From: Bryoerythrophyllum caledonicum
Taxonomy: Eukaryota; Streptophyta; Bryopsida; Pottiales; Pottiaceae
Direction: 5' to 3'
DNA length: 64,000 nucleotides
Assembly: GCA_963971425.1 (NCBI GenBank)
Contig: OZ020518.1
Coordinates: 6,427,989 to 6,491,988, forward strand
How positions within the stretch are numbered: position 1 is the first letter of the stretch; each line of letters begins with the position of its first letter. The translations under genes and the position numbers were made by a program. The notes beneath the pieces are model-generated. The model did not search any database. It had not been told where the DNA came from and saw only the letters and a list, made by a program, of their open reading frames with translations. This document shows, in pieces, positions 4,791 to 54,293 of this stretch.

Positions 4791-5113
4791 TAATGCAGAG
4801 AGGAAGTACTTAATCCATTGTCTGAAGTTTTCACTCTTCCATCTCCATCTCCGCCCCCCCTTCCCGCAAATTACCGCAATTCCTCGCCGCGGCGCAAATG
4901 CTTTCTCTTTAGTGATAGTCTTCGGTGATCAACGGTGATTGGCTTCTTAGGTTTGCGGGAAGTTGAGTGGTTTTTGGAGGAGTTTTGGTAAGGTGAGAGG
5001 TGTTTTGTATTTAGTTATATTTCCTCGTGGACTGGTTCGTTTTGAGGCGGTTTTGGTGTGTTTCTCAATTTTGGTAGGCTACAGTTGTTTGGAATTTATT
5101 ACATTTCTGTGTG

Positions 5114-17629: not shown

Positions 17630-19180
17630 CTAGCACCTTGGGAGGTTTACCTGATCAGCAACAGGTATCCAAGCGCTTGCGAAGCTCACGTCATGGCCTT
17701 TCCAGGTGAGCAACAGTGCCTGCTCTTGGTCGTCGTCGCTCTCCTTGCGCAGGCCCCAGCACCCGGAGTGCTCCGCGAGCATGGCCTTGGTCTCGTCCAC
17801 GACGTCGGTGGCGAAGCCCACGGCCGCGAACCCGGCGTGGCGCATGCGCTCCACCCAGCGCTGCTTGGTCTCCGCGCGCTCCACGCGGTCAGCGCCCTCG
17901 CAGGCCACCACGTTGGCGATCTTGTCCCCCACCTCGTCTTCCAGGCGGCGGCGCTGGCAGCTGTCCTCAGCGAGGAGCGTGTGGAGCGCGTCGAGCGGGA
18001 TCCAGAGGTGGTTGAAGGCGCTCCGGAGCCGCGTGATGAGGTCGGGGGACGTCAAGCTCACGTCCTCCTCGGCGAGCGTCACCACCTCCGGGTGGAGCTC
18101 CCGGATGAACCGTAGCGTCTCGTCCCGCACTCCGCCTTCTTCCGTGACGTAGTGCAGCCTGTAGAGGCAGTTCACCGCGAGCGACTCCTCCTGCGAGAGC
18201 CGCACCTTTGAGATGTGGTCCACGAGCTCGCACTGGAGCATCACGTTCTTCGAGGTGGCGAACTTTTGCAGGCGCGTGATGAGGTCTTGGTATGGAACGT
18301 CGAGCAGGGGCGGGATGGGGGCTGTGGAGACGCAGATGGTGAGCCGGAGGTGAGGCGGGGGCTCCGCGCGCTCCGAGAGCGCTTCGATGAAGGTGGGCCA
18401 TTGCGTGCAGTGGCTGGTGTTGAAATCCAGGATGTGCACGTTCTGCTTGCCCTCCATGGCGGCCAGGATGGCGCCGTTGGCGGCGATGAAGCCGAAGCGG
18501 TACCACGGCATGACATCGATGTAGGTGGTGAGCTCCAGGATGGTTTTCACCGCGGCGTGTCGTGCCAGGGAGCGTCCTTGGAACCTGGAGAGGAGCGCTT
18601 TGAGGAAATGGGAGAGCAGGCGCTGGTTGGGGTCGCCGTCTGGCGAGGCGATGCTGTTGATCACGAACATGGTTTGCTGCGCGTGTGTCAGGTCATTGGC
18701 TTCCAGTGATGTGGCGCATTGCACCAGCAGGTGCTCCATGGTATTCAGCTCCCGCGTGCCCATGCCCACATTCGACTTCTTCACCTTCTCCACGTACTCT
18801 TCCTGCTTGCCGACTGACCTCATCTTCTTCCACACCGGGGGAGATTCTCCGCTGTGGTGGATCTCCAGGAGCTTCGATGCCATCACTCTGGGGCTTGTCT
18901 CACCTGCGAACTGGAGAGAATCGGTACCTAGGTGGAAATCGGTCCCATACTTTAGCCTCTGGTGATGATACTCAGGAGGCAACGAGTGAGGAGCCTGGCT
19001 CCACATATCAGTGCCTTGTTCCTCGTTGATGGACAAGCCTGGGTCACCTGAGAAGCCTGTGCTTTCCTGGTCTCTCGAGCTTGATGCATTTGAGGTGGTG
19101 TCATTCTGGTGCTCCATGGAACAAATTACGTCTAACAAATCATCTCTGAATCGCCCTCTTGTGAACCATCCATGGAACAA
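17630..19180 (-). CDS. GRAS-family transcription regulator, SCL32-like
   Basis: A single exon of 516 residues; the second methionine (residue 22, genomic 19117) is an equally possible start. GRAS proteins are plant nuclear regulators of development that act with DNA-binding partners. Residues 1-145 are variable and polar. The GRAS domain runs from about 146 to 508: leucine heptad repeat I (MEHLLVQCATSLEANDLTHA), the block ASPDGDPNQRL, VHILD at 248-252 in place of VHIID, the second leucine repeat, a PFYRE-type region (HPEVVTLAEEDV… near 363) and the SAW motif (WGLRKE… and LTWKGHDVSFASAW at 475-504). ASPDGDPNQRL, RLRSAFNHLWIP and VACEGADRVER point to the SCL32 lineage. No DELLA motif. The coding DNA is clearly GC-richer than its flanks. 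Confidence 0.93.
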   Translation of the reverse strand: MFHGWFTRGRFRDDLLDVICSMEHQNDTTSNASSSRDQESTGFSGDPGLSINEEQGTDMWSQAPHSLPPEYHHQRLKYGTDFHLGTDSLQFAGETSPRVMASKLLEIHHSGESPPVWKKMRSVGKQEEYVEKVKKSNVGMGTRELNTMEHLLVQCATSLEANDLTHAQQTMFVINSIASPDGDPNQRLLSHFLKALLSRFQGRSLARHAAVKTILELTTYIDVMPWYRFGFIAANGAILAAMEGKQNVHILDFNTSHCTQWPTFIEALSERAEPPPHLRLTICVSTAPIPPLLDVPYQDLITRLQKFATSKNVMLQCELVDHISKVRLSQEESLAVNCLYRLHYVTEEGGVRDETLRFIRELHPEVVTLAEEDVSLTSPDLITRLRSAFNHLWIPLDALHTLLAEDSCQRRRLEDEVGDKIANVVACEGADRVERAETKQRWVERMRHAGFAAVGFATDVVDETKAMLAEHSGCWGLRKESDDDQEQALLLTWKGHDVSFASAWIPVADQVNLPRC

Positions 19181-20400
19181 AGGTGTCTAATTGACCCTAA
19201 AATGATACTGAATCCATTTCATCCTCTCATGAATCATCCATGAGCCCATGCTAAAAAATGGAGATGCTCTTTCAAAGAAATACTCCTCATGTATGGATCA
19301 AAACTACCCCTGGATGATGCAAGCAAAGTTTTCATCTTCCCATTGACGTGCAATTCCCCCTTCCTTGAAAATTCTACAGCTATGTCCACTGACACCCACG
19401 CTCATGCTTCGTATGTACTAGGGAGATGACTCGCCCTCAGCGGTGTACCCACACAATCGCATTACCATAACCCATCGTCAGCCTTGGCGCCACCTGATTC
19501 AAGGAACAATGTGGTACTCCTCAAAATGAGCTCTCTACGAAAAAAATGTACCAAAAAACCCAAACCTGTCTGTTGTTTGCTGTCACCTAAGAAAAGCGGA
19601 CAGGGTCCACAGATAAACTTGAGAGGTGAACTCTTCTTAAAGTTAGAGGGAGAACAATACATGTAACTCACAGTGGAAAGCTGTACCTTGACAGCTGCAT
19701 GAAAACAACTAGATCTGTGATGAAACCTTGTGTCCAAGCCGCAACTGATGCAAGTCCTTACTCCAGTTGCTTGCAATTCCGGGAGCCCAAGTGGTGAAGA
19801 ACTCCACCAGCTTCAAGTGGGGCAAGTTCCATTTCGAAGATTTCACCTTTTATAAAATTCTCAAGTCCGAGGCATTAAGGGTAGTATGCACTCTTATCGC
19901 TACCTCAACAAAACTCTCCATCCGCAAAAACTCTTTTTCCTGACAGAAGGACCTGCGCTAGAAACTGGAAATGCCAGCATCTGTTCAGGTGCTAGCCAGA
20001 GTTTTCCTAACAACAACTCATGATGGAACTACAGAGAAAACCTGAGAGTAAGCACCCTCTTCTACACACTACTACTACAGCTACTGATCACATTCTGTAC
20101 CAATTTGTATAAGAGATCCAGAAGAGGCACAGACACAAAATGAGGTGTGAGAGGCGGGGGCGGCGACCGGGGGGCGGGGGCGGCGACTGGAGAGTGGGGG
20201 GAGTTGTTTGGAGTTTGGCTGTTGTGAGTAAATTGCGACAGCAACGGAAAGCATGTGCGTTTTGATTGTTTATTTGCCTCATTTGCAGAGGACTTCAGGA
20301 GCTGGAGATCTGCTTGGATTGCGTGTGGAAGAGGTCACTATTCGCGTTGCTGTAGGTTGCATCATCATGATCTCCCACAACAACAACAACAAGCATTTTG
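19181..20400. other. upstream region of the GRAS gene
   Basis: No gene recognised. It contains the probable promoter and 5' leader (19181-19450) and a G-rich patch at 20145-20200 (gaggcgggggcggcgaccggggggcggggg) that could form G-quadruplex structure on the + strand. 20370-20520 is a C/T- then T-rich low-complexity run. Confidence 0.5.
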
Positions 20401-25479: not shown

Positions 25480-27069
25480 ATTTTATATCAGGAAATGAAA
25501 TAGTTTTTGCTGCACTTTATCCAAAAAATGGTGTGAAGAATTTGACTCGTCCTGTAGTTAAAGTTTTACGCAATGAAATGTTATCTCACATATTACGATC
25601 ATCATTGCTATCCAAGAAACCAAACTCATCGCCACTAAGTCCACTAATTACAAACAACAAATATTTCCCAATTATAAACTTATTTTCAACAACACGCATG
25701 CGCTTACAAGATGTATACAACAACGCATACCATACATACCGGCTAGAGGTGGTCTCTTGACATTGGTACACAAAAACTATGCATTCCCCGAAAACATTAC
25801 AAAAATCCCCTCACCAATGTATATATCACCTGACCTACAAATCATAAAAATTACGAATCAACCACGTCAACCATGGTTAATATTTCACGTATACATACCA
25901 TCCCACCAAGGAGACATTAGACTTATAACGGACATTCAAAACACCATTACCACCCAAATCAATAACAACCCAAACCATACACATCTATTATGTGGTGATT
26001 TTAACAAAGATATTGCATTCATTGGGAGACAAAGTGGTACACATAAAACCCCGCCGGAAATGATTGACTATTAGTGGCGTAATTTTACAGAAAACTTAAA
26101 CTATTCATATATTCCTACAGATACAAGATAGTCTAGACAAGGGGCTACGATTATAACAAGTCTAATAGACATATTCTATATCCACACACACAACCACACA
26201 CAATACTCCTCTACAACCAAAACAGAAATTATCCTCAACTTAGACCATTTGCCTATCTAATTAAATATACCAAATAATACACTTATTAATAGAACCTCCA
26301 TACCCACTAATAATGATAACATTCAAATACTCAACCCTATTCCAAAACTAACATAAATTTTTTTAATACAATGTTCTTCGAAGAAAAATCCATAAGTTTT
26401 GACTCTCTTACTAACATGCTAGAAACAATGACCAAATTTCCCCTTTACAAGGGAGTGACGCCTATAGCATCTTAGACACCTTAATTAATAATATCTCCAA
26501 CATCTTAAAAAGAAGTTGTAAAGCGCCTCCTATACCAGAATTAACCAATTGAACATCTCAACAAGGGGGATACCTCCCCCAAAAACTCTCTAAAACATGG
26601 AAGCAACACCTAGCTACCTACCATACAATCCGAAAAACGATCCAAATTGTTAGAACAACCTACAATGGCGCACCCACCCAATCTGCCACGATTTATAAAA
26701 CCTAGGTAATACCCAAATCCCACATCCGCCCCCTCCTCACATATCACCCGAAGAATGGTTACATGATATTGCACTAATTGCATAAAATGCCAACAAACAA
26801 GGTAGAAAATTAACTACCAAATATGCCAAAGATAACATTAAAAAATCCATATCAAAATATAAACAAATATATGAAACTAGTCCTAAGAAAATCAATAGAA
26901 GAGTCTTTAAGAATATCAAATCCCGACCACTTGATTGTTGTATCACCAATCAATATAACAACATACTAACTAGCCCCATTGACATAGCAAATGAAAATTA
27001 TAACCAACAAGTACAAAATAACCGGCCCACGGTACCAACATGCGATTATCTACCTAATCATCCACCTAC
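25480..27069 (+). pseudogene. LINE 5' part: apurinic endonuclease and start of RT (decayed)
   Basis: The first half of a non-LTR retrotransposon, interrupted at 27070. Recognisable endonuclease blocks: AIQETKL (about 25600), ARGGLLTLV (across 25745, frame broken) and LLCGDFNKDIAFIGRQSG (26000-26035), the conserved GDFN of APE-type endonucleases. Stops and frameshifts are frequent. 26730-27060 reads into the linker before the reverse transcriptase. The + strand is strongly depleted in G relative to C, matching 40.4-45.2 kb and unlike the insertion between them. The other half resumes at 40442. Confidence 0.85.
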
Positions 27070-27100
27070 AACACGCAATTAAGCAATTATGCACTTGGCC

Positions 27101-27641
27101 ATATAAAAGTGCACTTGGGTACAACGGCGGCCATTGCGAACAAAAGTGGCAAAATTGCAAAAAAAAAAAAAAAAACAATGAAAAAAAATGATTTCCAAAG
27201 AAAAAAAATTGAGCTTCTACAACAATATTACGTACAATCATGGTTGTTAATATTGGAAGCGGTTTTTTGGCATTTTCAACTAATTTTTGGTGGCCCCTCG
27301 TTAATACTAGATAAATCTGTATTTAATATAGTTTCACAATATTTCAAAGATAGATTTGAAGGATTGTAGTATACAAACCGGCGTAATCACATAAAAACAT
27401 AGTTTATGCAAGGGTTGGCAGTTGATTAAAAGATATTCTACGTAGTATATAATGCATACAATGGTGGAAATTAAATATAGATTCTTCTACATCTGGACTT
27501 AGCACCAATAGTAAAATTACCTTCACTCTATAGGATTAATGACATAACGTCTTACATCACCCTTAGAATATACTACTCTTACACGTACACTATATATCAA
27601 TTACCATACACAACTAGTATACTCTCATAAAGGCACACTAT
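27101..27641. other. left subterminal region of the large transposon
   Basis: Non-coding. A second copy of the TIR-like motif AAGTGCACTTGG follows the terminus, then an A-rich run (27160-27210). The rest is AT-rich, with no gene seen before the stop codon of the DUF7869 ORF. Confidence 0.5.
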
Positions 27642-30600
27642 CTACTCCACAGAATTTAAGGCTGCTTGCAAACGGTCGTCATCGATAGCTTCGGTTTGCA
27701 TTGCAATATATTGTAGTATGTGAGCCTTTGCCGATTGAAGAATGCGAATCCTGCTTTCAACTTGCACTCCAAATACATTGCGCTTTCTCCACCCGCTCGC
27801 CCCAGACATGGTTCTTTCCAGTGTGTCTACCCATGAAAAAATGCATGCATCTTTCTCTACCCAACTATGGCTCTCCCCAGATGGCTCCCAGAATGAATCC
27901 ATGCAATTTGCATATCGTTGTGCAGAAGACCCATGTCCATCAGCAACCCCCCTTTGGATGATGGGCCAATACCAACAAACCTTAATCTTAAGTCTCCATC
28001 GGTTTTTTCCTTCCTCAATCACTTTCCCCACATAGAATGGTACACCGCCTTCTATCTCTGCTTGATCAACACTCAAGGCTACAAACTGTCCACAACGGAT
28101 ATCAGATTGTGGATTAAATGGTGGAAATGGGTCGTGATTACCTTCATACATTGCTCCTTCTTCGGCGCGTTCCTCAACATAGTTACGCTCTGTTTGTTGT
28201 GCCCTACGCACTGCTTGATTAGAGGGTCTTCCTCTACGATGACCAAAGTATCCTCGAGCCTCGGCATTTGGAAGCATGGCCACTACCTGCTCTACAACAT
28301 CTATCTCGCGATTTTCTTCACTTGCACCATCCATTACATCCAAAGATGTGCTCCCTGTAGGTCCGGTGTTGGAGAACTCTGAAGGCCAAAACGGTGAGGA
28401 ACGATGCTCATTGCTACGGTCTTTATGTGGAAATTCAGCTAAATAGAGTTTCAATCTTTCAGCCTCTATTTTTGCCTCACGATTCTTGTCCTCATGCTGC
28501 AACCTTTGGATGCACCTTTCTTTATATACAATGAAGTCATCCAACGCCTTCAACTCCCGTTCATCCGCTCCAAATACTTCCGCAAACGCTGGTCGTTCAT
28601 CCCTACTTGGCAACGACCTCAAAGTTTTCGTCCCTGCCTCCGGTCCCCATGGATCCTTGCAATAATGCTTGTGTTGTACTCGAACCACACGAGTCCCTTC
28701 TCGATTGTCCATATAGAATCGCATGTGGTGCGGAAATGTTATGCCCACCAATGAATCCTGACCTGTCAGTAAGTGAGGAGTTATAAACAATTTCCAATCC
28801 CATACATTCTCTAGCAGCCGGGCGCTAACAAATGCCTCTGTAGGGGATGTTCCTCGTTCTATAAGACTCATCATTTCCTTCAACGAATCCACGTCCGACC
28901 TCTTCAACGTATTTGATATACAACTGAAGCGTTGATCAATATCTTCGTGTGTATGGCCCACTATAAGAAAAGATAGTTCCACCTCCTGAAAAAACCCCAA
29001 TCCCACCAATGTAGCACATAGAGCAAACATATAAATGTTTTTGTTCTCACGCGTGCAGTTGTCGGCCTGAATCCGCAATGTTGGTGGCAAAAAGCCCCTC
29101 CTCCGCAGCACATCTCCTATCACGTACAACAATGTACTCACGACTTGGTTGCTATCGTGTTTGTGGTGAGCCCCGAACCACACGTCGCAATATAAACCAA
29201 TCCCATGTACAAGAGCACCACACAAATGGGTCTTCACAAACCGGTGTTCAATGTTCTTCACAGTCTGACGCATCCTCGGTACCATAGTCGTGTTTTGATC
29301 CATGCCATCCACTATGATGCACATGTACAACTCAGGGCTAATATAACACGACCTCTTGAATATCCAATAATGCCTACGTTCTTCCATTTGGTTGCGTAGA
29401 TGCAACATAAACAACTCCTTTATCTTTATCCTTGCATCCGCATTGGTGGTTCCCTCCATGGCACATTTATACTCCCAACAATGATAACACTTTGAGAATC
29501 TCGAGAATGGAGGTACCTGAACGTGGGGATACTTGATGCGCCACATCCTCCGAAACGAACTCATAGAAATGGTTTCTCCAATACAAATTCTCTTGACCTC
29601 CTCGTTCACGTAATTGAATACATCAAATTTGGCTGTATTCATAGGAAGGAGAATGAGAGGCACCACTTCGTTGTCACTCTTACGGCGAATACAACGATGA
29701 GGTTGAGGACAACCAGCTTCATCGACAAACGATTTAAAGCAAGCCTCTGCTGCAGACATTCTAGTACTCTCTCTTATCGGATCTGAAAGGGTATTGCCGT
29801 GAATTGATGTCACTCTTCCATATATTAGACAGTCCTTCTTCAATTGCTTAAAGCGCCTCTGTGAATATCCAACCCCAAGAGCGTAGCAAGCATTGCAAAC
29901 TTCTTTCCCATCTAACTTTGTTACAAACTTGTCTCGACGAGTTCCTTCCGTCCTTGTGTAAAAAGAAACCAGCATCTGTCTCATCCACGTACTTCGAACT
30001 GAAAACTCACTACCCCATGCATTATATCGCATGTCCAATAGATACCTTGCTGGAACATCCCTCAAACAATTGCGTTTGCATCCTCCTTGTGCCATTGCAA
30101 TTTGCACGCTTCTAAGCGATACCTTAGATGGTGCAGCTTCTGTCAATGATGGCTCCCTTGAATCTCTCCTTCTCCTATTTTGCATAGAATATGGACGTCG
30201 TGCTGGTCTAACATAAGCAAATCCATCTACATGGGGCAAATCTTGGATATTTGAGGGAGTAGATTGGGAAAACGGCGAATTTTCATCTATGGCGTTTGAA
30301 GCATGACTACTGCGTCGAGACCTCTGGGTGGATCCTGGTGTGTTGATGAACTCAGGAAAATCAAATTCTGGGGCCATCACTTCTACAGGCGCTATCTGTG
30401 ATCCAACGTCACCATGGACACTTGTGATATCAGGTTCTACAGCCACTACACGTAGCAAAGATCGATGCCAACGAATGATCAAGCCCACACACATGCCAAG
30501 GCGTTCTCCTACAATCTCTCCGGTCCAATGCAATGCATCATCTACCCTAATGATACGCACCGCCACCTCGAATGGGAACAACTTCGATCCATTCAATTCC

Positions 30601-30872
30601 ATGCCACTTTTGAATGCATGCTCCCTGGTTGCTAAGCCCACCACATCTCCTCTTTCTGAAAGCAATTCTACTGCCCTTTCCAATTCAGAAGTCATGATCC
30701 CAACAGATCTCTGTTGAATTCGCCTTGCACGTGCTGCTCGTACTAATCGGGCCCCCACAGAGCTATTAGAAGGCATATTGTCCCTTTCGATGTGTGGCCG
30801 TATCAAAGGAGTCTGAATCGTGCGGCTCTCCATTATCACTATTGAAAAAATAGGAACATTATGGCTGCACAT
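27642..30872 (-). CDS. DUF7869-type transposon protein, candidate DDE-like transposase
   Basis: An uninterrupted 1,076-codon frame. The methionine at residue 14 (30833) is a likely start, or an acceptor-like TTTTTTCAATAG just upstream marks an exon boundary. Residues 1-250 are basic and serine-rich. Cysteine clusters follow (CKRNC 265-269, CNAC 326-329, CYHCWEYKC 462-470) that may bind zinc. The core 515-650 carries acidic motifs in order: IVDGMD (D522), QADN (D604) and VGHTHEDIDQRFS (640-650). This spacing resembles an RNase-H-fold DDE/D transposase. The C-terminal 150 residues include a WY-containing module (FYVGKVIEE…KVCWYW) like small chromatin-reader beta-barrels, then a conserved SWV tail. 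DUF7869 proteins are scattered and multicopy in eukaryotes, without proven function. Lying inside a TIR element, this is its best transposase candidate. Confidence 0.75.
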   Translation of the reverse strand: MCSHNVPIFSIVIMESRTIQTPLIRPHIERDNMPSNSSVGARLVRAARARRIQQRSVGIMTSELERAVELLSERGDVVGLATREHAFKSGMELNGSKLFPFEVAVRIIRVDDALHWTGEIVGERLGMCVGLIIRWHRSLLRVVAVEPDITSVHGDVGSQIAPVEVMAPEFDFPEFINTPGSTQRSRRSSHASNAIDENSPFSQSTPSNIQDLPHVDGFAYVRPARRPYSMQNRRRRDSREPSLTEAAPSKVSLRSVQIAMAQGGCKRNCLRDVPARYLLDMRYNAWGSEFSVRSTWMRQMLVSFYTRTEGTRRDKFVTKLDGKEVCNACYALGVGYSQRRFKQLKKDCLIYGRVTSIHGNTLSDPIRESTRMSAAEACFKSFVDEAGCPQPHRCIRRKSDNEVVPLILLPMNTAKFDVFNYVNEEVKRICIGETISMSSFRRMWRIKYPHVQVPPFSRFSKCYHCWEYKCAMEGTTNADARIKIKELFMLHLRNQMEERRHYWIFKRSCYISPELYMCIIVDGMDQNTTMVPRMRQTVKNIEHRFVKTHLCGALVHGIGLYCDVWFGAHHKHDSNQVVSTLLYVIGDVLRRRGFLPPTLRIQADNCTRENKNIYMFALCATLVGLGFFQEVELSFLIVGHTHEDIDQRFSCISNTLKRSDVDSLKEMMSLIERGTSPTEAFVSARLLENVWDWKLFITPHLLTGQDSLVGITFPHHMRFYMDNREGTRVVRVQHKHYCKDPWGPEAGTKTLRSLPSRDERPAFAEVFGADERELKALDDFIVYKERCIQRLQHEDKNREAKIEAERLKLYLAEFPHKDRSNEHRSSPFWPSEFSNTGPTGSTSLDVMDGASEENREIDVVEQVVAMLPNAEARGYFGHRRGRPSNQAVRRAQQTERNYVEERAEEGAMYEGNHDPFPPFNPQSDIRCGQFVALSVDQAEIEGGVPFYVGKVIEEGKNRWRLKIKVCWYWPIIQRGVADGHGSSAQRYANCMDSFWEPSGESHSWVEKDACIFSWVDTLERTMSGASGWRKRNVFGVQVESRIRILQSAKAHILQYIAMQTEAIDDDRLQAALNSVE

Positions 30873-31051
30873 TAGTCAAAATACATGTATTAATTGTTAA
30901 CCTTCAAATCACCATTCATCTGATAAAAGGTATGTTTCTAAACACATATTTACTGTTCAAAATATGATGATGATATTGTATCTTTTGATAAAACTGCTTT
31001 GAAATGAGAAAATTAAGAATTTTTAGAACATGAACTCTTTGCACGGAGTCT
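30873..31051. other. non-coding DNA upstream of the DUF7869 ORF
   Basis: AT-rich. Probably the promoter, or an intron if translation starts further upstream. Nothing more specific is visible. Confidence 0.35.
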
Positions 31052-31997
31052 TTAACCCTGAAGGTACAATGATAGTGTACACCAAAAACACTTCTAAATT
31101 GTTGGATTCCAGTGCAACGAACAAAAAATGAAACAAAAACTTTTATTTCTAGTTTTCACCGTAGTTTCTCAATTACGACTTACTAATTAATAATTAAAAA
31201 AACATTCATAAACTTTGACCGCACGGATTGAAAGATTATAGTGTTTGAAGTGAAGCTTATGGTTCATTTACTTCCCTGCATGTTGTGGATCAGCAGACTT
31301 TGACTTCACTTCGTGTCAAATTTATTTTTACAGAAGGTCTAAATCCTTAACCATCTTGTTAAGCATGATGTTTGTTCCTTGTACACCAATTTTTAGAGGG
31401 AGAAAAAAGGTGTAGCATATTCAAAACAACTGTGCAAAGAGTCGAAGTTCGGAATTTGTTAATTCACACTGTAATTTTTTGTGAACTTAATATGTTTTAG
31501 ACTGGTAATTGAAATGGTCAATAAGAAGGTTTACATCACATATTGTAGTGGAAAAAAAAAGTGAAAAATAAAAAGATATCTAGGTTTTATTTGGAAAACA
31601 AGAAGTTTTTTGGTACCTTGCCCATCACTGACTGACAATGTGTGAAAATGTTTGATTTGGGTTGGTATGCTATTTTTCAATAAAGACAAGAACTTATTTT
31701 GACAACATCAAGGGAAATAATTTTACTTTTGAGTACAAAAAATCTCACATTCAACAGAGTGTCCTAGCAAAAGTTTTTGGAGGTGCCCAACTTATTTGCT
31801 CTCTCCATTTTAAATTTATAACCCTATAACTTTTTGATCAAATGTCCAATTTACGTAAAAATCATTTTCCCACTAAGGTTTTGGTAATGCCTTTCTATAG
31901 TAAAATTTACAAAGAGGAATGTTGGACATTGACACCATAGAAACCTGACCAAACATTCAACAAGCCAATTTTTGACACTTTATCTATTAGGGGTTAA
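31052..31997 (+). mobile_element. MITE-A copy inside the large transposon
   Basis: 946 bp with ends TTAACCCTGAAGGTAC and CTATTAGGGGTTAA. It aligns along its length with the next copy at 32288-33239 (gtacaccaaaaacacttc; cgtagtttctcaatta; cacggattgaaagattatagtgtttgaag; ttcttccctgc; ggtgtagcatattcaaaac). No coding capacity. Confidence 0.75.
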
Positions 31998-32287
31998 ATA
32001 TGCTACACCTCTTTTGCATTCCTAAACATTGGTGAATAATGGAACTAATCAATCTTCACATGATGATAATGAACCTAGATCATGTGTGATGCAATCTTTT
32101 GAATCCAAGTGAACTGAAACGAAGGGAATTCACTGAACCTAAGGAAGAAAATGAACCATGTTGTCTACTTGCTATTATTGACACCATTGGAACTTGTTAC
32201 AATCGCTAATTAAATAATGGATTTGTACGTCCACATAAAGGTTATTCTACAAACAACATAGTACAAAAGATCAATCAAGAATCAATC

Positions 32288-33239
32288 TTAACCCCTAAGG
32301 TATCGTGACAGTTTTACACCAAAAACACTTCAAACTAAATGGATTCTAGTGCAACGAATAAATAAGGAAACAAAAACTTTGATTTTTAGTTCTGACTGTA
32401 GGATCTCAATAAAAGCTTATTAAGTAATACATATACAAAATTTCAAAAACTTTGTCCCCACGGATTAAAAAATTATAGTGTTTGAAGTCAACCAAATGGT
32501 TCATTTTCTTCCCTGCGTTTAGTGGATCAATAGACGTTGACTTCAGTTGGTGTCAAAAAATTTCACTACAAAAGGTCTAAATCTATTACCATCTTGATAA
32601 GCATGATGTGAGCTCCTTACACACCATTTTTTAGAGGTAGAAACCGGGTGTAGCATATTCAAAACAAGTGTGCAAGGAGTGGAGGCTTGAAATTTGTTAA
32701 TTCACATTTTAATTTTTTTTTAACTTAATATGTTTTTGATTGACAATCCGAATGGTTAATATGAATGTTTACATTACATATTGATGTGGAAAAAATAAAA
32801 AGTGAAAAATATGAAAATATATAGGTTTTATTTGGAAAACAAGAAGTTTTTTTGGTACCTTGCCCGACAATGAGTGACAATGTGTGAAAATGTTTGACTT
32901 GGGTTGGAATGCTATTTTTCACTAAAGACAAGAATTTTTTTTGGACAATATGAAGGGAAATAATATTACTTGCAAGTAATGAAAATCTCACTTTCAATAG
33001 AGTGTCCTATCAAAAGTTTTTGGAGGTGCCCGAGGTGCCCGCTCTTCCCATTAACATTCAAAACCCTATAACTTTTTCATCAAATGTCCAATTTAGGTAC
33101 AAATTGTTTTCCTACTAAGGTCTTGGTAATGTCTTTTTATTGTAAAAATTTCAAAGAAGAATGTTGGAAATTGACACCATAGGAACCTGACCGAACTTTC
33201 AAAAAGCCCTTTTTGGACACTTGGTACCTTAGGGGTTAA
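32288..33239 (+). mobile_element. MITE-A copy inside the large transposon
   Basis: 952 bp with ends TTAACCCCTAAGGTA and TACCTTAGGGGTTAA, inverted repeats matching over 15 bp. It is the best-preserved long version of the family here. TA target duplication is inferred from the outer bases. Confidence 0.8.
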
Positions 33240-34100
33240 ACTTGTATAAAAATAAATGTTTACCTCAAGATACGTTGCAGGTGTTAGCGGTACACGCACT
33301 GATGCTTGATGGCGTTCAACATTATATCACCATTCTGTCGTTGTTGTTCGGCATGTTTCTCAACCCTTCCCCCTTTACCTGCAACACATGCATAAAGTTT
33401 ATATGGTAAACTATGTGATAAAAAATCTTATATGTATCTTCGTATTACATATAGCCCGAAAATTTATTATAATATATTGAAAAAATTAACATATGGAGAA
33501 ACAAAGCAAAAGGTCCAAAGTTCTTAAAGTCAAACTTTTACTACTAAACTTGAGGCACAAGGTTCCAACATGGATAAAAGGTTTCTATGCAAACCTAGAG
33601 GTCATTTCTCTTCGCAGTTTCTAAGGTGGGTATTCTTGCAATCAAAACCTCAAGGCTATGTGCATTTTTTCTTCATTCACTAATTACTGTTAAATTTGTA
33701 TACTGTGTAGATTGGAGGAAATTTGCACATCGAGGAGATTTTTGCGAACTTGGTAAGCTTCTAACTTTGTTTCAATTCTGAATGTGAGGAACTCAAGGGT
33801 TATGTTCATGATGATTGAAGTTCAGACAGAATTATGTTAGTGTTAGGTGAGTACCAAAGTTTGAATTCACAAATGAGAACACCAACTAAAATATGTACAA
33901 GATTGCAATTTCAACAAGAAAATATGATAGCAGTCAACAACTAGAGAGTGCAAGCATTGTTATACTGAAAAAATGACACCAAAACCTCATAAAGTGGTCA
34001 AAAGAGCAGCTCGTAGTATTGCACAAAATCCTCAATATGGCACATCAGCGCACTACTTGAAACCCTAGCCTCTACACACAAGAACCTAAACCCTAGTTCC
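33240..34100. other. non-coding interior of the large transposon
   Basis: No gene recognised. AT-rich, with short open stretches only. 33330-33400 (gtcgttgttgttcgg, catgtttctcaaccc) is slightly GC-richer and could hold a small 5' exon of one of the flanking ORFs. Confidence 0.35.
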
Positions 34101-34310
34101 AAAACCCTAGCCGCCGTCACCAAACCCTAGCCACCACCACCAAATCCTAGCCACCACCTCCAAACCCTAGCCACCACCACCAAATCCTAGCCACCACCAC
34201 CAAACCCTAGCCACCACCACCAAACCCTAGCCACCACCATCAAACCCTAACCATCGCCGCCAAAACCTAACCGCCGCCATCAAACCCTAGCCGCCACAAC
34301 CACGAATCCA
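34101..34310. repeat. 20-bp minisatellite with telo-box motif
   Basis: About ten units of ccaccaccaccaaaccctag in exact 20-bp register, with substitutions (aaatcctag, ccaccacctcc, ccatcgccgcc). Each unit contains AAACCCTA(G), the plant telo-box and one period of the plant telomere repeat on this strand. It is not a telomere: it is interstitial and diluted with ccacca. It lies 130 bp before the assembly gap. Confidence 0.85.
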
Positions 34311-34439
34311 AACCCTAGTCAACATATTCGCGTGACGTGGAAATCGCGTGACGCCTCCCAAAGTAACCTTGAGCTAGAGCTGTGCGCGCGCACACCCCCT
34401 ACTGCTGGTGCTCCTCCACCAAGCTAATCCAAACACATC

Positions 34440-34639
34440 NNNNNNNNNNNNNNNNNNNNNNNNNNNNNNNNNNNNNNNNNNNNNNNNNNNNNNNNNNNNN
34501 NNNNNNNNNNNNNNNNNNNNNNNNNNNNNNNNNNNNNNNNNNNNNNNNNNNNNNNNNNNNNNNNNNNNNNNNNNNNNNNNNNNNNNNNNNNNNNNNNNNN
34601 NNNNNNNNNNNNNNNNNNNNNNNNNNNNNNNNNNNNNNN
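34440..34639. other. assembly gap (200 N)
   Basis: Exactly 200 undetermined bases, so the true size is probably unknown. Open frames running through it are artefacts. It falls inside the large transposon next to the minisatellite, a likely cause of the failed assembly. Confidence 0.99.
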
Positions 34640-34729
34640 ACCAAGGAGCTCATACCCTGGTCGTCATACCCTAGATATTGATACCCCGAGTACCTTGGTC
34701 CATAAATAATGTAGAGAATATCTAACCCA

Positions 34730-35800
34730 AATATCGTTAAAATTGCTTGTTTTTGTGAAATTAGAAAGCCTCTTCAATTAATGTTTTTTTCTTAGTTTTA
34801 ACCGTAGGATCTCAATAGTGACTTATTAAGTAATATGCTCACAAAATTTCATAAAGTTTCACCGCACGGATTGAAAGATTATAATGTTTGAAGTAGTGAA
34901 AATGCTCATTTTCTTCCCTGCGTTTTCTGGATCAGCAGTCTTTGATTTCAATTGGTGTCACATTTTTGCACTATAAAAGGTCTCAATTAATTACCATAAT
35001 GTTAAGCTTGATGTTAATTTTCTATATACCGATTTTTAGAGTTAGAAAAGGGGTGTAGCATATTCAAAAAAATTGTGCAATGAGTGGGGGTTCAAAAATT
35101 CACAATTCACGTTATGTTTTTTTGTGAACTTAATATCGTTTGAAATGAGAATCCAAATGGTCAATACGAAGGTTTACATCACATAATGCCGTAGAAAAAA
35201 TCAAAAGTGAATCATACAAAGATCTCAAAGTTTTATGTGGAAAGGTAGAAGTTTTTTGGTACTCTCCTTGAAAATGTGTGACAATGTGTGAAAATAATTG
35301 ACTTGGATTAATATGCTTTTTCACCAAAGAACTAACAACATGCTTAACACGATGGTATTGGATTTACATCTCGTGTAGTGCAAAAGTTTTTAGAGGTAGA
35401 CAAGGGGTGTAGCATATTTTTTTTAAATGTGCAATGAGTGGAGGTCGAAAATTTCTCAATTCACGTTATGTTTTTTTGTGAACTCGATATTTTTTTAAAT
35501 GAGAATCCAAATGGTCAATAAGAAGTTTTACATTGCATAATGTTGTAGGCAAAATCAAAAGTGAATCGTACGAAGTTCTCAAAGTTTTATGTGGAAAGAT
35601 AGAAGTTTTCTGGTACTCTCCCTGAAAATGTGTAACAATGTGTGAAAATAATTGACTTGGATTAATATGGTATTTCACCAAAGAACTAACAACATGCTTA
35701 ACACGATGGTATTGGATTTAGATCTTGTGTAGTGCAAAAGTTTTTAGAGGTAGACAAAGGGTGTTGCATGTTCAAAAATATTGTGCAATGAGTGGTGGTT
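34730..35800 (+). repeat. MITE-A-derived 354-bp tandem duplication
   Basis: The segment is MITE-A interior. Within it the line caccaaagaactaacaacat occurs at 35322 and again at 35676, a period of 354 bp, and its flanks align on both sides (gaaaataattgacttgg before, gtgcaaaagtttttagaggtag after). A third, partial unit runs to about 35810 and merges into the 5' leader of the following ORF, so this repeat probably supplies that gene's promoter. Confidence 0.8.
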
Positions 35801-35872
35801 CAAAAATTCTTATTCCATACTAATAGTGACTATCGTTTTGTAATGATATATAGGTTTTTTGAGTGTTGCGTT

Positions 35873-38170
35873 ATGGCACCACCAAATATTGATAGAATCT
35901 GGGAGAGCCACGGTTGGTGGATCGCAGAAGTGGATGAGTCGAGCGCCTTCTTATGGGTGACGGATTATCCCTTTGAGTTGGGAAAGCGTACATCGGCGTT
36001 GGGGAAGAGTTTTGGCAAAATCCAAGCAATCACTCTTCGACGTGATGATATGGTATACGTTACTTGCGCAGTGGGTCCAGGTCAATCGGAGGTGAAGACT
36101 TCTCTTTCGAAGAAGTTACTTTTGGCACCTGTCCCTTTGAATCTTCTTCAAAATCCAGGTCAGGTGAAATTCCTCAAATCATTGCAGACGTTTTGGTTGA
36201 ACATATCTCTTGCGGTACGTACTGCTAGACACAACAACGTCTTAGCCTGTTTAGCGTTATCACCGGAGATGGTACTGAAGGCTAAGAAGATTATGGAGGA
36301 ACATATTAGATATGAAGCATTTCGGGAGAGGGACCCATCACGTGCGACAACTCAAGCCCCACCAGCGGAACCAGAAGAAACAGAAGTTTATCGAATTCTT
36401 GCTGAGCCGTTGCAACTGGATTGGCGACCACTGGAGGGGGGGGGAGGAAGTGGAGGCCAACATCCCATCACAACTTCTGAGGTACAGACATTACCGAATC
36501 CTCCATTAACGAGTAGACGTCCTACGAAGAGGCCACGGCGTGTTGAGAGTGATGTAGCTTCAGGTTCAAGAGAAGGCCCATCAAGTTTGGATCCAAGTGG
36601 GAGGAGGTTGATTGGAAGAAGTGCAAGATCAGGTGGCAGGATTCCTAGGTCGGGGCTCAGGACGTCTGATGGTCATCGTAGGGCCCCTACATCTACACCG
36701 GGAGATTTAGCTGATTTGTCAGCCATGGCGCAGGAGGAAGAAGATTTTCACAACCTTCCAGACAGTGTATCAGAGGATTTTGAAGACAATGCGGAGATAC
36801 CACAGGATCTTCCAATTCTAATGAATTTAAAAGCACCAGTGCCTACAACAGAGGAGATTGCGAAAGGATCAGTGTGGGGGAATTTTGTGTTTAAGGCACA
36901 CATAGACCGCATTGTCTCTGTGGAAAATCCGGAAACCAACCACCGGGTTTTATCACAGAAGAGGGTCATAGAAGTATTCAACCGCTTACGAGACCCAGAA
37001 TCTGCGAGTCGGGTGAGTAGATTGGTACTTCGACCGATCAGATACATCGTGCATACTACCACCGATGATGGTGTCGTTGAAAAGGAAGAGCTGCCGTTTC
37101 CGTTGATAGGTACCGCACGAGAGTTTGAACGCATGTTCATTGCACACGGGAGTGCTTCTGCAGAGGGTGCTATGGGATCGCAATATTCTTGGCTTCAAGA
37201 TCATATCATTTGGGAACCGGTGGATGGGCAACACATAGTAGCAGCTTGTAAGTTTGCACAGCAGCAGTGGAGAGATGGTACTATGCCATTAAACGAGTAT
37301 CTGGACACGTTTGAGCGGCGGGAGGCCTCTTTTGTGGTGTATGATGATCGTCGCTTTTACATTGAGAAGTCTGCGCGGATCAACGTGGCGGAGTTCCAGA
37401 GACATTCATATTCTACCATGGAGGAGGATTTGAGGAAGATCCGTCAGATTTGGGATCTATACGGGAGGCCTGATAGCACACTACGTGCGGACGATGCACG
37501 TAGGGCTGTTGCTTTGGTGAGTGCGGCAAGTGCAGTGCATAAGTTGCCCAAGGGGGATGGAGTTGTCACGGTGAAGAGGTTGGCCAAAAACATGGAGGAT
37601 CTGACCAATCATGCATGGAATCCGAGCAATGACTGCTTCGAAGCTATCATTCAAGTATGCAAGGACTACGAAGATGGCATTCTCTTTTACAGCAAGGAGG
37701 AAGAGGACAAGTGGAAGGACATGGCGAGGAAGAAAGAGCTGGATCCAAATGTGGACGTACGACCAACAAGAAAGGAGATGACCCAAAATTGGTTGAGGCC
37801 GTTAGGTAGGGTTCCAATTCCATATTATCTTCGGTTGGCAAAGTCTGCTGCAGCGAAGCCGGTGACGGAGGATGGAGTAAGACCTCGTCAAGCATACTAC
37901 TTCGACGGTGTAAAAGACAAGAATCCACATCCTCGTACGATTGCCGGTGTTTGTGACCGATATCAGAGACGAGAAGCTGTGATCAATTCCATCCGTTGGT
38001 TGATGGTGGAGAACAAGGAAAGTACACCTGATTCCATGGAGGAGTTCTTCCGTATCCGTGTAGGGAAGTATTTTCCGAGGAGTAACGCACAACTTGATAC
38101 CTTTGGGAAGCTTTTGAATGCTGCCACGAAAAAAGCTTGGACTGCTCCTGTGCGGGGGGAAGGTGTCTAA
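35873..38170 (+). CDS. large-transposon ORF with DGQH motif (unknown function)
   Basis: 765 residues from ATG 35873. The frame is open further 5' to 35792, but that part is repeat, and an acceptor-like tatatag lies at 35847-35853. I do not recognise a named family. Residues 1-155 look globular (WESHGWWIAEVDE, SAFLWVTDYPFELG). Residues about 165-320 are low-complexity, proline/serine/arginine-rich and probably nuclear. From about 330 a second globular part contains EPVDGQHIVAA near residue 450, resembling the DGQH(R) signature of ParB/DndB-like nucleotide-binding proteins, followed by VVYDDRRFYIEKSARIN and a helical region. It ends at a run of six G (38153-38158), after which the same product appears to continue in another frame. 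Placement beside the DUF7869 ORF suggests a transposon accessory protein. Confidence 0.6.
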   Translation: MAPPNIDRIWESHGWWIAEVDESSAFLWVTDYPFELGKRTSALGKSFGKIQAITLRRDDMVYVTCAVGPGQSEVKTSLSKKLLLAPVPLNLLQNPGQVKFLKSLQTFWLNISLAVRTARHNNVLACLALSPEMVLKAKKIMEEHIRYEAFRERDPSRATTQAPPAEPEETEVYRILAEPLQLDWRPLEGGGGSGGQHPITTSEVQTLPNPPLTSRRPTKRPRRVESDVASGSREGPSSLDPSGRRLIGRSARSGGRIPRSGLRTSDGHRRAPTSTPGDLADLSAMAQEEEDFHNLPDSVSEDFEDNAEIPQDLPILMNLKAPVPTTEEIAKGSVWGNFVFKAHIDRIVSVENPETNHRVLSQKRVIEVFNRLRDPESASRVSRLVLRPIRYIVHTTTDDGVVEKEELPFPLIGTAREFERMFIAHGSASAEGAMGSQYSWLQDHIIWEPVDGQHIVAACKFAQQQWRDGTMPLNEYLDTFERREASFVVYDDRRFYIEKSARINVAEFQRHSYSTMEEDLRKIRQIWDLYGRPDSTLRADDARRAVALVSAASAVHKLPKGDGVVTVKRLAKNMEDLTNHAWNPSNDCFEAIIQVCKDYEDGILFYSKEEEDKWKDMARKKELDPNVDVRPTRKEMTQNWLRPLGRVPIPYYLRLAKSAAAKPVTEDGVRPRQAYYFDGVKDKNPHPRTIAGVCDRYQRREAVINSIRWLMVENKESTPDSMEEFFRIRVGKYFPRSNAQLDTFGKLLNAATKKAWTAPVRGEGV

Positions 38171-39839
38171 ACTGGAAGACATAGGCTACCTTATCCCTCC
38201 TTCCATCAGGTTTCATTATGGTGACATTGCAGCAGGAGGGCGTGGATACATTGGACTGTCTGTGGATGTGGGAGGACAGGCTACTGCTAATTGGGAATGG
38301 CAGATGGAAGTCAAGAGGCCAGGCCAGAGCGACACAGAGAATCTTACTCCGATTCGGTGTAGAAGAGGGTTATTCCGCACCGACTACATAGAGTTGGGGA
38401 AACCATGTTTGTGGGTGATTGATTGTCGACGTGGCGGTGGGAGGCATGGAGATGGTCATTGGGGAGACGCCCAGTTATCCGCAGCTTTTGCACAGCTGTC
38501 ATTATGGATGGCAAATATTGAACGATGGAATGTCATCTTCTTGTTACCAGCGGCCGTGTATGCCAACGAAGAGTTTTTCACGAAGGTGAAGCTTCCAGAG
38601 GGATGTACTATGCGACGTGGATGTTGGGCATTTGATCCGAACTCGGTTAATCCCTATGCTCTCGATTTTACAGAGAATGGGCGTCTGGAACAAGTAGTAC
38701 AACCGATTGGCGATGTTGTGATTTGTATGCAGCATCCTGTGGATACATCTCCTGGCCCGAACTATGTTTCTGGAGACATTCCACTTCCTCTTGTTTTCTT
38801 GGATCACTGGAGTGAAGCACGCCAACCTTCTGAAGTTGATTCACTTGAGAGATCTCCATCAGAGCTGGCAAGACTAGTGGGCTCATACTTGCCCCGTGGT
38901 TGGGGTTTAGTGGCGTGTAACATATCTACGGCCATTCCCACGATCCTTGAAGGAGATTTCCAGGGATCTGAGGTTTTCATCATTGACGATTGTATAGACA
39001 GAGTTTCATTTCTGTACAATGAGTTGTCCGACAATTTCCAAGGACAACTGTTGGTCAGGACTGGTGGAACAAGTACTGGTTGCAACATCGTACCTGAGAC
39101 CGAAGAGGCGGTTGGTGGAGTGAGGAATGAAGATGACAATGAGGATGGAGATGGTTTACATGAGAGATTGCCACGTTCAGGTACCACTGAAGATTTTTCA
39201 TCTCGCAGTGGTTCAGACGCCGATGAAGATGGAGTGAACCAGTCTCCTCCAAGAGAGACGATTCCATCAACGCAGCGGGCGGTGGGAGATACTTCACGGG
39301 AGACGACTACATCACCTACAGAGAGGATGCAAGATACTGGTGTAGTGGATGTTGGTTTGGCGGCAGGGGCAGGAAGGGGGCGTACATTTGATGGTCCTAG
39401 GCTGGAGATGGAGGAAGAAGAATTGGATTCATTGGAATTTTTTTCGGTGCAGAGGAGGATTCGACAGCCTTTGATGCCTTCTCAATCAGAGCCTGTATCG
39501 GAGACACAAGAGACGTTCGGAGGTATTCAGAGTGATACCGGACTAGGTTTGCCTTCCGTTCCAAGATCTAGCGTATCCGAGGACATCATTGCATTTCAGG
39601 GGGCCTTCTCATTAGAGCGAGAGATGTCCTTCAATCCTGAAGACGGCTTTTTCTACAATGATAATCGCGTAAGGCATACGCGGGAGGGTGTACCTGGCAA
39701 TTACCGATTTGTTGAGTGTGCGTCCATTGGCATCGAAGATGTGGGAGATCGTCCAGTGCAGGATCATGAACTGTCCGCTATGGTAGGTAGCGCCATTGGA
39801 CACGTGGAGGGAGTCGTTCCGCCAGAAGATGAGCTCTGA
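38118..39839 (+). CDS. large-transposon ORF, continuation in another frame
   Basis: A 573-codon frame overlapping the previous ORF by 53 bp. Its first convincing residues (VSKLEDIGYLIPPSIRFHYG) come directly after the G run where the previous ORF stops. The true product is therefore probably one protein of roughly 1,320 residues, joined by a frameshift, a short intron or correction of a homopolymer error. Residues 35-220 are globular (GLSVDVGGQATANW; LWVIDCRRGGGRHGDGHWGDAQ; NVIFLLPAAVY). The glycine-rich GGGRHGDGHWGDAQ could be a ligand loop; a methyltransferase-like fold is conceivable but not shown. The C-terminal half is acidic and disordered. I do not recognise the family. Confidence 0.55.
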   Translation: MLPRKKLGLLLCGGKVSKLEDIGYLIPPSIRFHYGDIAAGGRGYIGLSVDVGGQATANWEWQMEVKRPGQSDTENLTPIRCRRGLFRTDYIELGKPCLWVIDCRRGGGRHGDGHWGDAQLSAAFAQLSLWMANIERWNVIFLLPAAVYANEEFFTKVKLPEGCTMRRGCWAFDPNSVNPYALDFTENGRLEQVVQPIGDVVICMQHPVDTSPGPNYVSGDIPLPLVFLDHWSEARQPSEVDSLERSPSELARLVGSYLPRGWGLVACNISTAIPTILEGDFQGSEVFIIDDCIDRVSFLYNELSDNFQGQLLVRTGGTSTGCNIVPETEEAVGGVRNEDDNEDGDGLHERLPRSGTTEDFSSRSGSDADEDGVNQSPPRETIPSTQRAVGDTSRETTTSPTERMQDTGVVDVGLAAGAGRGRTFDGPRLEMEEEELDSLEFFSVQRRIRQPLMPSQSEPVSETQETFGGIQSDTGLGLPSVPRSSVSEDIIAFQGAFSLEREMSFNPEDGFFYNDNRVRHTREGVPGNYRFVECASIGIEDVGDRPVQDHELSAMVGSAIGHVEGVVPPEDEL

Positions 39840-40406
39840 GCCCTGGAGCTATATACTATAGTAGAGCATGCACGCAGTTTAGGTGGCAAGTACGTTAGTA
39901 TAATGTAGTTTGAGATGTGTCTATCGTTTGGTGGGTGGTATATATTTATATATTGGATGGTCCATATGATATGATTGATTTTAGAATTCCTCAGTGATAG
40001 TGTGGAATTGCTTGATTATGTATGTTTTTGCATTATAAAATACAGTGAGGTACTTTACACTATCTTAGGAAATTGCATATATATTTTTGTATCTCTTACA
40101 CATTGTATTTGTAGTGCAGTACTCTAAAATCCTATAATAACTCATAACACATTTATAATCTCTTTGGGCACATGATCATAATTTTGTAGCAGGATTTGGA
40201 AACTAGATTAGAAATCATATATTTTCTTAAAAAAGGTAGCGAATGTAAAAAATATATTATTGATATGAACATGAAGATGCCAATGTATGACACGAGAAAC
40301 ACCCAAAAAATTTGACAAAAAACATACTTAACTTTTGCCAAATTTTGATTTTTTAAAAAGTTATGAGCAAATAACTTGCGGCTTTCTACCAACAACCACT
40401 GCACTT
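39840..40406. other. right subterminal region of the large transposon
   Basis: AT-rich, non-coding, probably the 3' untranslated region and terminator of the + strand gene, then subterminal DNA. The motif CCACTGCACTTGG just inside the right TIR mirrors AAGTGCACTTGG inside the left one. Confidence 0.5.
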
Positions 40407-40441
40407 GGCTAAGTGCATAATTGCTTAATTGCGTGTTCTAC

Positions 40442-43400
40442 ATGCACGTGCGGGGTTAGACAATACCCTTGGCATGAGCTAGGCGGATACACTATAGTGT
40501 GACCCTCAAATTCCCTTATACACATACTTTAATCGTGCCACATAATACATGTGCCTCAAAACCCTGGGAAATAATAAAGCTCCTACGCCAGAGCGCATAC
40601 CAAATTCTATCCTCAAATCCATGCCTCCAAGATTTCATAAACTATTATTTCTTTTTTTCTCCCATAGCTACAAACAAAAACAAATCCCTACCTCTTGGAA
40701 AACTAGTTCCACAATTTTACTACACATAAAAGGTGACCCTTCAATACTCCCCAACCATTGACCAATTGCCCTAGCTAACACCATCTATAAATTATTCACA
40801 AGTACACTTTCATCCTTACTTTCCTTATACGGGGAAAAACACAAGATTTTACATGACACTCAAGAGGGTTTTCAAGGAGAAAGAGGTACAACTCGACAAC
40901 TTCAAACTATAATTGCGGCACTCAAAGATGCACGTTTTACAAACCAAGACATATACATATTATATATTGATTTTAAAAATGCGTTCAGTTCCATTGACTA
41001 CGCAAGATTACTTGCAGTTATGTTGGACCTTGGATATTCCACAGACTTCGTACAACTAGTAGGAAACATACACTCTCACTCCTATACTTCCTATGTTGGA
41101 GAAGTCTTCGGAACCACATGCCCCATCCCAATACAACGGGGGACCATACAAGGTGATACATTAAGTCCATATTTGTTCATTATTTTCCTAGAACCGTTAC
41201 TACGATGGTTACAAAGAGGGAATAATGCTTACACCTTTTGTACATCCAAAGTCACCATAAACTTGGCTGCCTATGCTGATGACCTCGCCGCCATTGCTGG
41301 AAAACTCCAATCACTACAAATTCAACTCAATAAAACCGACAAATTTTGTAAATGGACTGGTATGGATGTTGGGGTTCATAACTGTGTCGTCACGGGATGC
41401 CGGACTATATCAAAGTTAAGCCCCACCATATTTAAAGTCCTAATGCAAGCCTCCAACATTAGCTATAGTAATCAACCCATTCCCATACTACACCAAAACG
41501 AACCCCACGTTTATCTAGGCTCAAATCTTGTCCCATTGCTGAAATAGAAGACTCAATTCCACGCCACTACTAATAAACTCTCTAAACAATGTAAAGATTT
41601 AACAACATGCCCGACCACTATGAAACAAAAAATTAAAATGGTAGATATAGCAATTTGGCCTCGAGTAGCATACAATTTCTACGGAGTACCATATGCTATG
41701 CCCGCTATTAAGAAACTAGGCAAACAAATTATTGCGGTACAAAAAAGTATATGTAAACTTCCTAATGGATGTCGAATGCCATAACCCAACTCCCATACAA
41801 ATTATTTGGATTAGAAGCTTTTTCTATAAAAAATGCCTACCTTTGTTGTATAGGTGAACAACTACAAAACGCACTTAAAGACAGAGGGAGACTTGGAAAA
41901 ATCTACAAAGGACTTACCCACTATGTCCTTGCCAAATATGGTGGCGTCACTAAAATGCCAAGAATATAAAAAATTGATTGCATCAGATCCACCTTCACCC
42001 GCACTTTTTTCTCACTAAAAAATGAAGCAAAAGTACATCTAAAAAGCACACTCTCGGACTTTCTATCGGAACCTGCACCACTTAAACAAATGTGGTTACA
42101 AGCAACTCAAACCGACACAAGAATTAACCACCACCTCTCTACAAAACTATCACAAAACTCTTTTCTACGAACATTGCTGACTTAAAACAAATTATGCTAC
42201 CCAATGGAACACACCTCATGAACCATAACGACTTTAAACTATTCTATTGTTTACCATCTAAACTAATAAAAAGTGTCTTTAATATTGCTAAACAACTCTT
42301 TTGCCACCCCTCATGTTCCCACACATGCAACACTCTATGCTTCACCCATACAAATCTATACTCTCAAAGATCCATACATCACCACCAATAAAAACATTCT
42401 CTCTAGAAATAACCCCCAACCACTCCACCCCCCAACCCACCACATGAACCCCTACCTCTCTCCAACGCACATTCTTAAAAATCCCTCTATATATTCCATC
42501 CATACCATTAATGACCATAAACATAGAAAACTCACCGATTCACATAAAATAGTAAAACAGACACCAAAAACCCATGTCAATGGCAGTCTAACAACTCTAC
42601 CTACAACAAATGGCTACTGCAACGAAACTTCTTCCCATGGCAAAAAATACCTCAATCTATAATACTAAGAAACTAACGCAATACTACCAAAAAGGCCAAA
42701 ATAAATTATATTTTGAAATCATCCAAGCACACCACCCCCAAGAACAATCCCAAGACACAAGAGCCGTTGCACCCCCCACAATTATTCCTCTACTTAACCT
42801 TCACATAACCGAATGTAACTCCAAAAGCAATATCTACACAACAACCAACACAATTAAAATCAATGAAGAGAAAGCACATATATATGAAGATAATAGAAGA
42901 CATTTATTTACCATTCCTCTTAGTAGATTACAATGGCTATGAAACCAATATCATTGAACTCTATCAACTACCATAAACATTGAACTTGTAATCCAACCCT
43001 TCAAAACCAAAATAGTCTTGCTACACCAAAGATAGCAATAGCGCATCTCAAAAAACAACCCCCTTGAACTTGCCCAATATACACAACCTACACCCATTCT
43101 AGAGTCATCAATCACATCCTTAACATCCAACACTCATATCTCTCATCCCCCGTTACATATTCTACTATCACCGAATTCTACTCACCTTTCAAAAGGGACA
43201 AAATTTTGGCTCATCAGGCAACGCCTTTGATCATACATAGAAAGGAAATGGCATTGCGCACCTCCACAATATAGAAGACACACAACAAGCAATACATTGA
43301 GCAAGACTTGCGGCAAAAATGACCCAAACTCTACTCAAACCCTCATTATCACCTCCGATGATAATTGGTACCAAAACTTCAACCAACACTCCGGCCCATT

Positions 43401-50062: not shown

Positions 50063-50534
50063 AGGTTCCGGAAGTTAACCTAAAAATCCGGCAAAAAAAA
50101 ATAAAATTAGTATTAGAATATTAGAAAGATAGATTAATACAGTAGAAAGTAGAATCACCAAATAAGACGAATAGGGGGTAGGAAGGTTCCTTAAAAATTC
50201 TAACGGAATGCTAAATCCGGAGGTCTGGATTCGATCGGAACTCTCCAGAAGAAACCAGAGCCGAGAGCAAGTCCGGAAGAAATCTGGATAGCGGAACCGT
50301 CATGATGGCATTTCCGAAAGTGACATCAGAGCTGTTAGGAGATCCCGTACGTTGTGACCGATATAAAAAGAGGAGAACAATAGGAATTCCCCACAATTGT
50401 CTTTTCCCTTTTTTTTCTTCCTCTTTTCCTTCTCTCTTGTTTTTTGCCCTCCTTGCCGGTTGTTTTTCAGCATCCGGTTGTAGTTCGAGTGTTTTGGTGA
50501 GGTCAATGCGTGCAGGTGCGACCGGACAAACGGA

Positions 50535-54075: not shown

Positions 54076-54293
54076 GTCATACTCACCGTGAGTATATTGA
54101 AGACAACACATGGAGCCTCACTTCACTTCTGAACTTTTGTTTCCTAAGAGCTTTGAGCTGCACTATGTATCTATTGCTTGGTAATCATCGAGGTCAGAAG
54201 TCTTCAATATCAGAGTTTCTTTAGGAACTTATGATATTTCTTCTACATACTATATATCACGTTCGTTCATTTCTAGATAATATATCTATCAAA

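Follow-up and report, generated by a model that had tools for sequence, protein, structure and literature searches.

A large DUF7869 transposon with 4-bp target duplications in the moss Bryoerythrophyllum caledonicum, a probable member of the Sola superfamily

We analysed a window of 64,000 nt from the moss Bryoerythrophyllum caledonicum (contig OZ020518.1), together with its genome assembly (437 Mb, 894 contigs). The window holds a large transposon with terminal inverted repeats (TIRs), which sits inside a long interspersed nuclear element (LINE) and carries two long genes. Gene 1 encodes a protein with the domain DUF7869, and gene 2 encodes an accessory protein. The two genes are separated by non-coding repeats of about 5 kb in total, including a 200-base gap, and the length of the element is therefore nominal. 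The features are listed in Table 1.

Table 1. Features of the transposon and its target site, in window coordinates
Feature	Position	Strand	Remarks
TIR element	27070-40437		nominal 13,368 bp
Left target site duplication, CTAC	27066-27069		flank reading; single CTAC in empty copies L074 and L075
Right target site duplication, CTAC	40438-40441		flank reading
Left TIR	27070-27101	+	pairs with right TIR at 31/32 bases
Right TIR	40406-40437	-	pairs with left TIR at 31/32 bases
Gene 1, predicted DDD transposase	27642-30875	-	1,077 codons stop to stop, single uninterrupted frame
Pfam DUF7869 match	28692-29243	-	E 1.3e-50; amino acids 545-728
Candidate catalytic triad, D523 / D605 / D645 or D647	28935-29309	-	paralog alignment and AlphaFold2 secondary structure
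Central non-coding repeats	31078-35800	.	about 1.24-kb duplicated segments and a 354-bp tandem unit adjoining gene 2
Assembly gap within central repeats	34440-34639	.	200 N
Gene 2, accessory protein	35873 (about)-39839	+	divergent orientation to gene 1; frame interrupted in overlap 38118-38170
EPVDGQH motif	37214-37234	+	EP[VI]DGQH in 6/6 aligned paralogs reaching the motif position
Beta-class N6-adenine/N4-cytosine methyltransferase-like fold	38367-39062	+	

A preliminary description of this DNA had claimed 31-bp TIRs agreeing at 30 positions, flanked by CTAC and nested in a LINE. The TIRs are real and CTAC is present on both sides. The motif GCACTTGG occurs at 27091, inside the left TIR, and is repeated at 27111 just internal to it; several GCACTT motifs lie within and just inside both ends of the element, and these are plausible sites for the transposase. 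The nesting was also borne out, with a LINE endonuclease fragment (25577-26074, Pfam matches under the curated cut-off) to the left and a LINE reverse transcriptase (40762-41547, Pfam) to the right, both on the + strand.

We then joined the two flanks with one CTAC into a 240-bp probe for empty sites. Forty matches were scored among 1,070 candidates, and 38 of them ran uninterrupted across the junction at 71-84% identity, the remaining two being the window's own LINE halves. Two of the 38 (L074 and L075, with 84% and 83% identity) were read base by base and show a single CTAC followed by ATGCAC, which is the kind of empty LINE copy that the preliminary description had in mind. The other 36 were taken as LINE copies because of their similarity to the probe. 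Host frames were restored in two relatives when the element and one 4-bp repeat were taken out: a LINE frame of 766 amino acids in C8_24.0, and a Ty3/gypsy-like frame of 861 amino acids in C1_64.2. In C4_8.8, the third copy tested in this way, no frame of more than 150 amino acids crossed the insertion site. The TIRs, the target site duplications (TSDs) and the empty sites support a cut-and-paste mechanism with a 4-bp stagger.

The preliminary description had allowed for a TIR occurring only once in the genome. We found that its first 30 bases, with up to 3 mismatches, had 1,852 matches genome-wide (916 forward and 936 reverse), and the reversed pattern, searched in the same way as a control, had none. 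TSDs were surveyed in three sets comprising 30 distinct elements, of which 24 were scored and six were not scorable. The first set was the window element with ten fetched copies; five of these 11 were scored and all were perfect, with CTAC (window), TGTT, ACAA, TTTA and TATT (C1_3.2). Of the unscored members, C10_4.1 is eroded at its right end, C4_32.0 and C14_19.1 have no right TIR within the stretch read, and a recognised TIR pair was missing from C9_16.4, C14_4.75 and C2_27.6. The second set held ten close pairs of window-type TIRs, all perfect; nine of the pairs were distinct, and these gave five duplications at 4/4 and four at 3/4. The third was ten pairs whose TIRs are of the type found in C1_3.2 (19 bp in C1_3.2 itself, against 32 bp in the window element); nine were at 4/4 and one at 3/4. 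In total, the 4-bp duplications were perfect in 19 of the 24 scored elements and matched at 3/4 in the other five, and the sequences were varied, none being TTAA. A complete and gap-free relative, C1_64.2, measures 15,409 bp and is flanked by TTTA at either end. The element is a genuine large TIR transposon making a 4-bp target duplication, and such duplications occur with two TIR types; it is recently active, and the genome holds hundreds of its relatives, some complete and others shortened.

Two observations from the survey stand apart. The four duplications at 3/4 among the nine distinct pairs of the second set (L053/L054, L057/L058, L065/L066 and L069/L070) occur despite perfect TIRs at both ends. 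One insertion with its flanks is present twice, inverted and about 60 kb apart (G000:C2:3103772-3109788 and G000:C2:3164168-3170178), as if by segmental inverted duplication, and it was counted once.

Because of the gap in the window element, we considered whether its two halves belong to different insertions, with gene 2 as an unrelated passenger. The absence of a right TIR and gene 2 from the stretches read of C4_32.0 and C14_19.1 is also in keeping with this idea. However, the TSDs match at both ends, C8_24.0 is 99.9% identical on either side of its own gap, and C1_64.2 and C1_3.2, neither of which contains any N, hold both genes between their TIRs with 4/4 TSDs. Separate insertions are therefore extremely improbable, and we regard the stretch as one element.

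Other copies have gaps at different positions of the central region. In the near-identical copies at G000:C4:32006508-32024507 and G000:C14:19120232-19138231, neither gene 2 nor a right TIR follows the assembly gap within the stretch read. The C4 copy has a near-identical gene 2 about 20 kb off, oriented like gene 1, and for the C14 copy one is found about 155 kb off; scaffolding errors at the central repeats may be the reason. In C9_16.4 (L039, L040) the central repeats recur every 1,995 bp. A distant subfamily has gene 1 at G000:C2:27561320 (-) and a divergent gene-2 relative at G000:C2:27607912 (+), 46 kb apart, possibly a single element with a greatly expanded centre. The central repeats of the window element are mostly 70-78% identical in DNA to those of C9_16.4 and C2_27.6, whereas gene 1, whose protein is 46% and 36% identical, respectively, aligns only partly in DNA (1,059 bp and 422 bp, at 67-68% identity). 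At the DNA level this contrast is moderate. Distant subfamilies may share the repeats because elements have exchanged them, or because the repeats have a function under selection.

Gene 1 had been described as a long, barely damaged frame of 1,076 codons, and apart from one codon this agrees with our reading. In the Pfam search, DUF7869 was the sole transposase family matched, and no hAT, PIF/Harbinger, Mutator, CACTA or KDZ family was listed. Four aspartates, D523 (just outside the DUF7869 match), D605, D645 and D647, are invariant in 12 aligned paralogs. The region of the triad has an RNase H-like order of secondary structure in the AlphaFold2 model, and fold matches of gene 1 are weak. The ratio of nonsynonymous to synonymous substitution rates (dN/dS) is 0.16-0.25 in all six pairs for gene 1 and 0.27-0.33 in 6/6 pairs for gene 2; both genes are under purifying selection. 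The DUF7869 protein is very probably the transposase, and the paralog alignment and the model suggest that it may use DDD chemistry.

Gene 2 had been read as a two-frame partner gene. The long constrained second gene stands, but the two frames do not, since gene 2 is one frame of 1,348 codons in C8_24.0 and of 1,341 codons in C4_8.8, and the break is thus a lesion of the window copy or of its assembly. The two genes are divergent in the window, in C1_3.2 and in 14 of the 15 assessable cases among 35 places. Gene 2 is a regular partner of the transposase gene and not a chance passenger. Its EPVDGQH motif may be ParB-like, and a ParB-like part is suspected. Pfam ParB gave no match in two window pieces (E <= 1), four gene-2 sequences (E <= 10) and three more (E <= 1), and the confidence of the structure model is low around the motif.

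Residues 832-1063 of the modelled gene 2 protein have a methyltransferase fold; the three highest-ranking matches share 8-12% identity with it. The fold is common to the beta-class N6-adenine and N4-cytosine methyltransferases (M.BceJIV, RsrI, Adineta N4CMT and CcrM); unlike them, gene 2 has lost the equivalents of the catalytic motifs. Motif IV of these enzymes is (D/N/S)PP(Y/F/W). Its equivalent in gene 2, D-C-R-R inside the stretch LWVIDCRR starting at 38409, reads D-C-R-R, D-C-R-Y, D-C-R-N or D-C-N-W in all seven covering paralogs; the D is kept, and the aromatic fourth residue is kept in two cases. No GxG-type motif I was visible in the six paralogs that reach its expected place. Gene 2 might still be an active methyltransferase that marks DNA of the element itself; this role has been proposed for an Ectocarpus protein predicted to make N4-methylcytosine or N6-methyladenine (PMC12477816). 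The fold and the purifying selection agree with this, but the motif IV equivalent is off-pattern in 7/7 paralogs and motif I is absent from view in 6/6, which makes activity unlikely, and we did not file gene 2 as an active enzyme. Tentatively, gene 2 could be an acquired prokaryote-type methyltransferase that has lost its catalytic activity and now serves the transposase as a DNA-binding partner, retained in subfamilies with copies that are 22% identical.

To place the element, we compared it with known superfamilies. TSDs are 3 bp in CACTA and PIF/Harbinger, 8 bp in hAT and about 8 bp in Zisupton. In Mutator they are 7-12 bp (PMC10741241). With a TSD of 4 bp and no such Pfam family in gene 1, the element is none of hAT, PIF/Harbinger, Mutator and CACTA. 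Chapaev, Ginger, Academ and piggyBac/Kolobok are groups with 4-bp TSDs, of which piggyBac/Kolobok target TTAA; in Pfam, gene 1 matched no transposase family but DUF7869, though which of these groups have Pfam models was unchecked. The giant KDZ and EnSpm transposons of algae share the large size and the accessory genes (PMC12477816), but gene 1 has no KDZ or CACTA Pfam family and the TSD lengths differ.

Sola elements have DDD transposases, 4-bp TSDs and TIRs of 11-1124 bp, are mostly 2-9 kb and sometimes more than 15 kb long, and are present in the moss Physcomitrella (PMC10741241). Sola2 of dictyostelids has AT-rich 4-bp TSDs and a transposase of 888 amino acids (PMC3627910). The window element is like Sola in its TSD, large size, predicted DDD transposase and presence in a moss, and both the 32-bp and the 19-bp TIRs are within the Sola range. 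Sola1-1_Ec32, a giant Sola1 transposon of 21.5 kb from the brown alga Ectocarpus with a ParB/methyltransferase accessory gene (PMC12477816), has the same gene plan, in which the accessory gene lies on the strand opposite the transposase. Its accessory protein, like that of the window element, has about 1,100-1,350 amino acids and a DNA methyltransferase domain. However, its methyltransferase is predicted to be an N4mC/N6mA enzyme, whereas the motifs of gene 2 are eroded; its ParB-like domain is recognised, and long central repeats are a feature of the window element. The hosts also differ, a brown alga against a plant.

The preliminary description was right about a large TIR transposon with a 4-bp TSD, but its suggestion of an undescribed type is not supported, and Sola was missing from its list. 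An undescribed superfamily of large cut-and-paste transposons with a DUF7869 transposase, which would resemble Sola in the length of its TSD and in its DDD triad by convergence only, would fit the facts that DUF7869 is unnamed in Pfam and had no mention in a limited literature search, and that no relative was confirmed when viral and prokaryotic contigs were scanned, though Sola has been reported from bacteria (PMC10741241). Moreover, the likeness to Sola is one of descriptions. Against this, a TSD of this length, a DDD signature, the size, the TIR range and occurrence in moss all fit Sola (PMC10741241), and the divergent partner with a methyltransferase fold matches Sola1-1_Ec32 (PMC12477816), so that a new superfamily appears improbable. 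We infer, by published descriptions and not by transposase sequences, that the element belongs to the little-studied Sola superfamily, most probably to Sola1, with a probability of roughly 0.8.

Elsewhere in the window, a single-frame DEAH-box helicase gene (5078-8035) and a GRAS transcription-factor gene (17630-19186, E 2.4e-91) are likely host genes. A hAT transposase remnant lies at 55263-56822 (Dimer_Tnp_hAT, E 3.5e-6). No Pfam family was matched by the open frame just before it (54225-54884) or by a 678-codon frame rich in charged residues (50484-52520).

The gene 1 protein, as an RNase H-like DDD enzyme, would bind the TIRs of about 32 bp together with the GCACTT repeats that lie in them or next to their inner edges; it would cut the element out and insert it into target DNA with a stagger of 4 bp. 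The divergently transcribed gene 2 probably encodes a DNA-binding protein whose methyltransferase-fold domain has eroded catalytic motifs. This protein may bind DNA of the element itself, perhaps at the central repeats, and may regulate or protect transposition, possibly also target it.

The unnamed domain DUF7869 thus gains a likely identity, that of a DDD transposase making 4-bp duplications. Its elements are present in many copies, some of which are near-identical and keep open frames, and a partner protein goes with the transposase. A methyltransferase-fold partner within the giant-Sola plan, which has been published for a brown alga, would thereby also be known from a plant genome. One may then ask why a methyltransferase fold is retained in a transposon once the catalytic motifs of the fold are gone. 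Annotation may also take giant DUF7869 elements for host genes.
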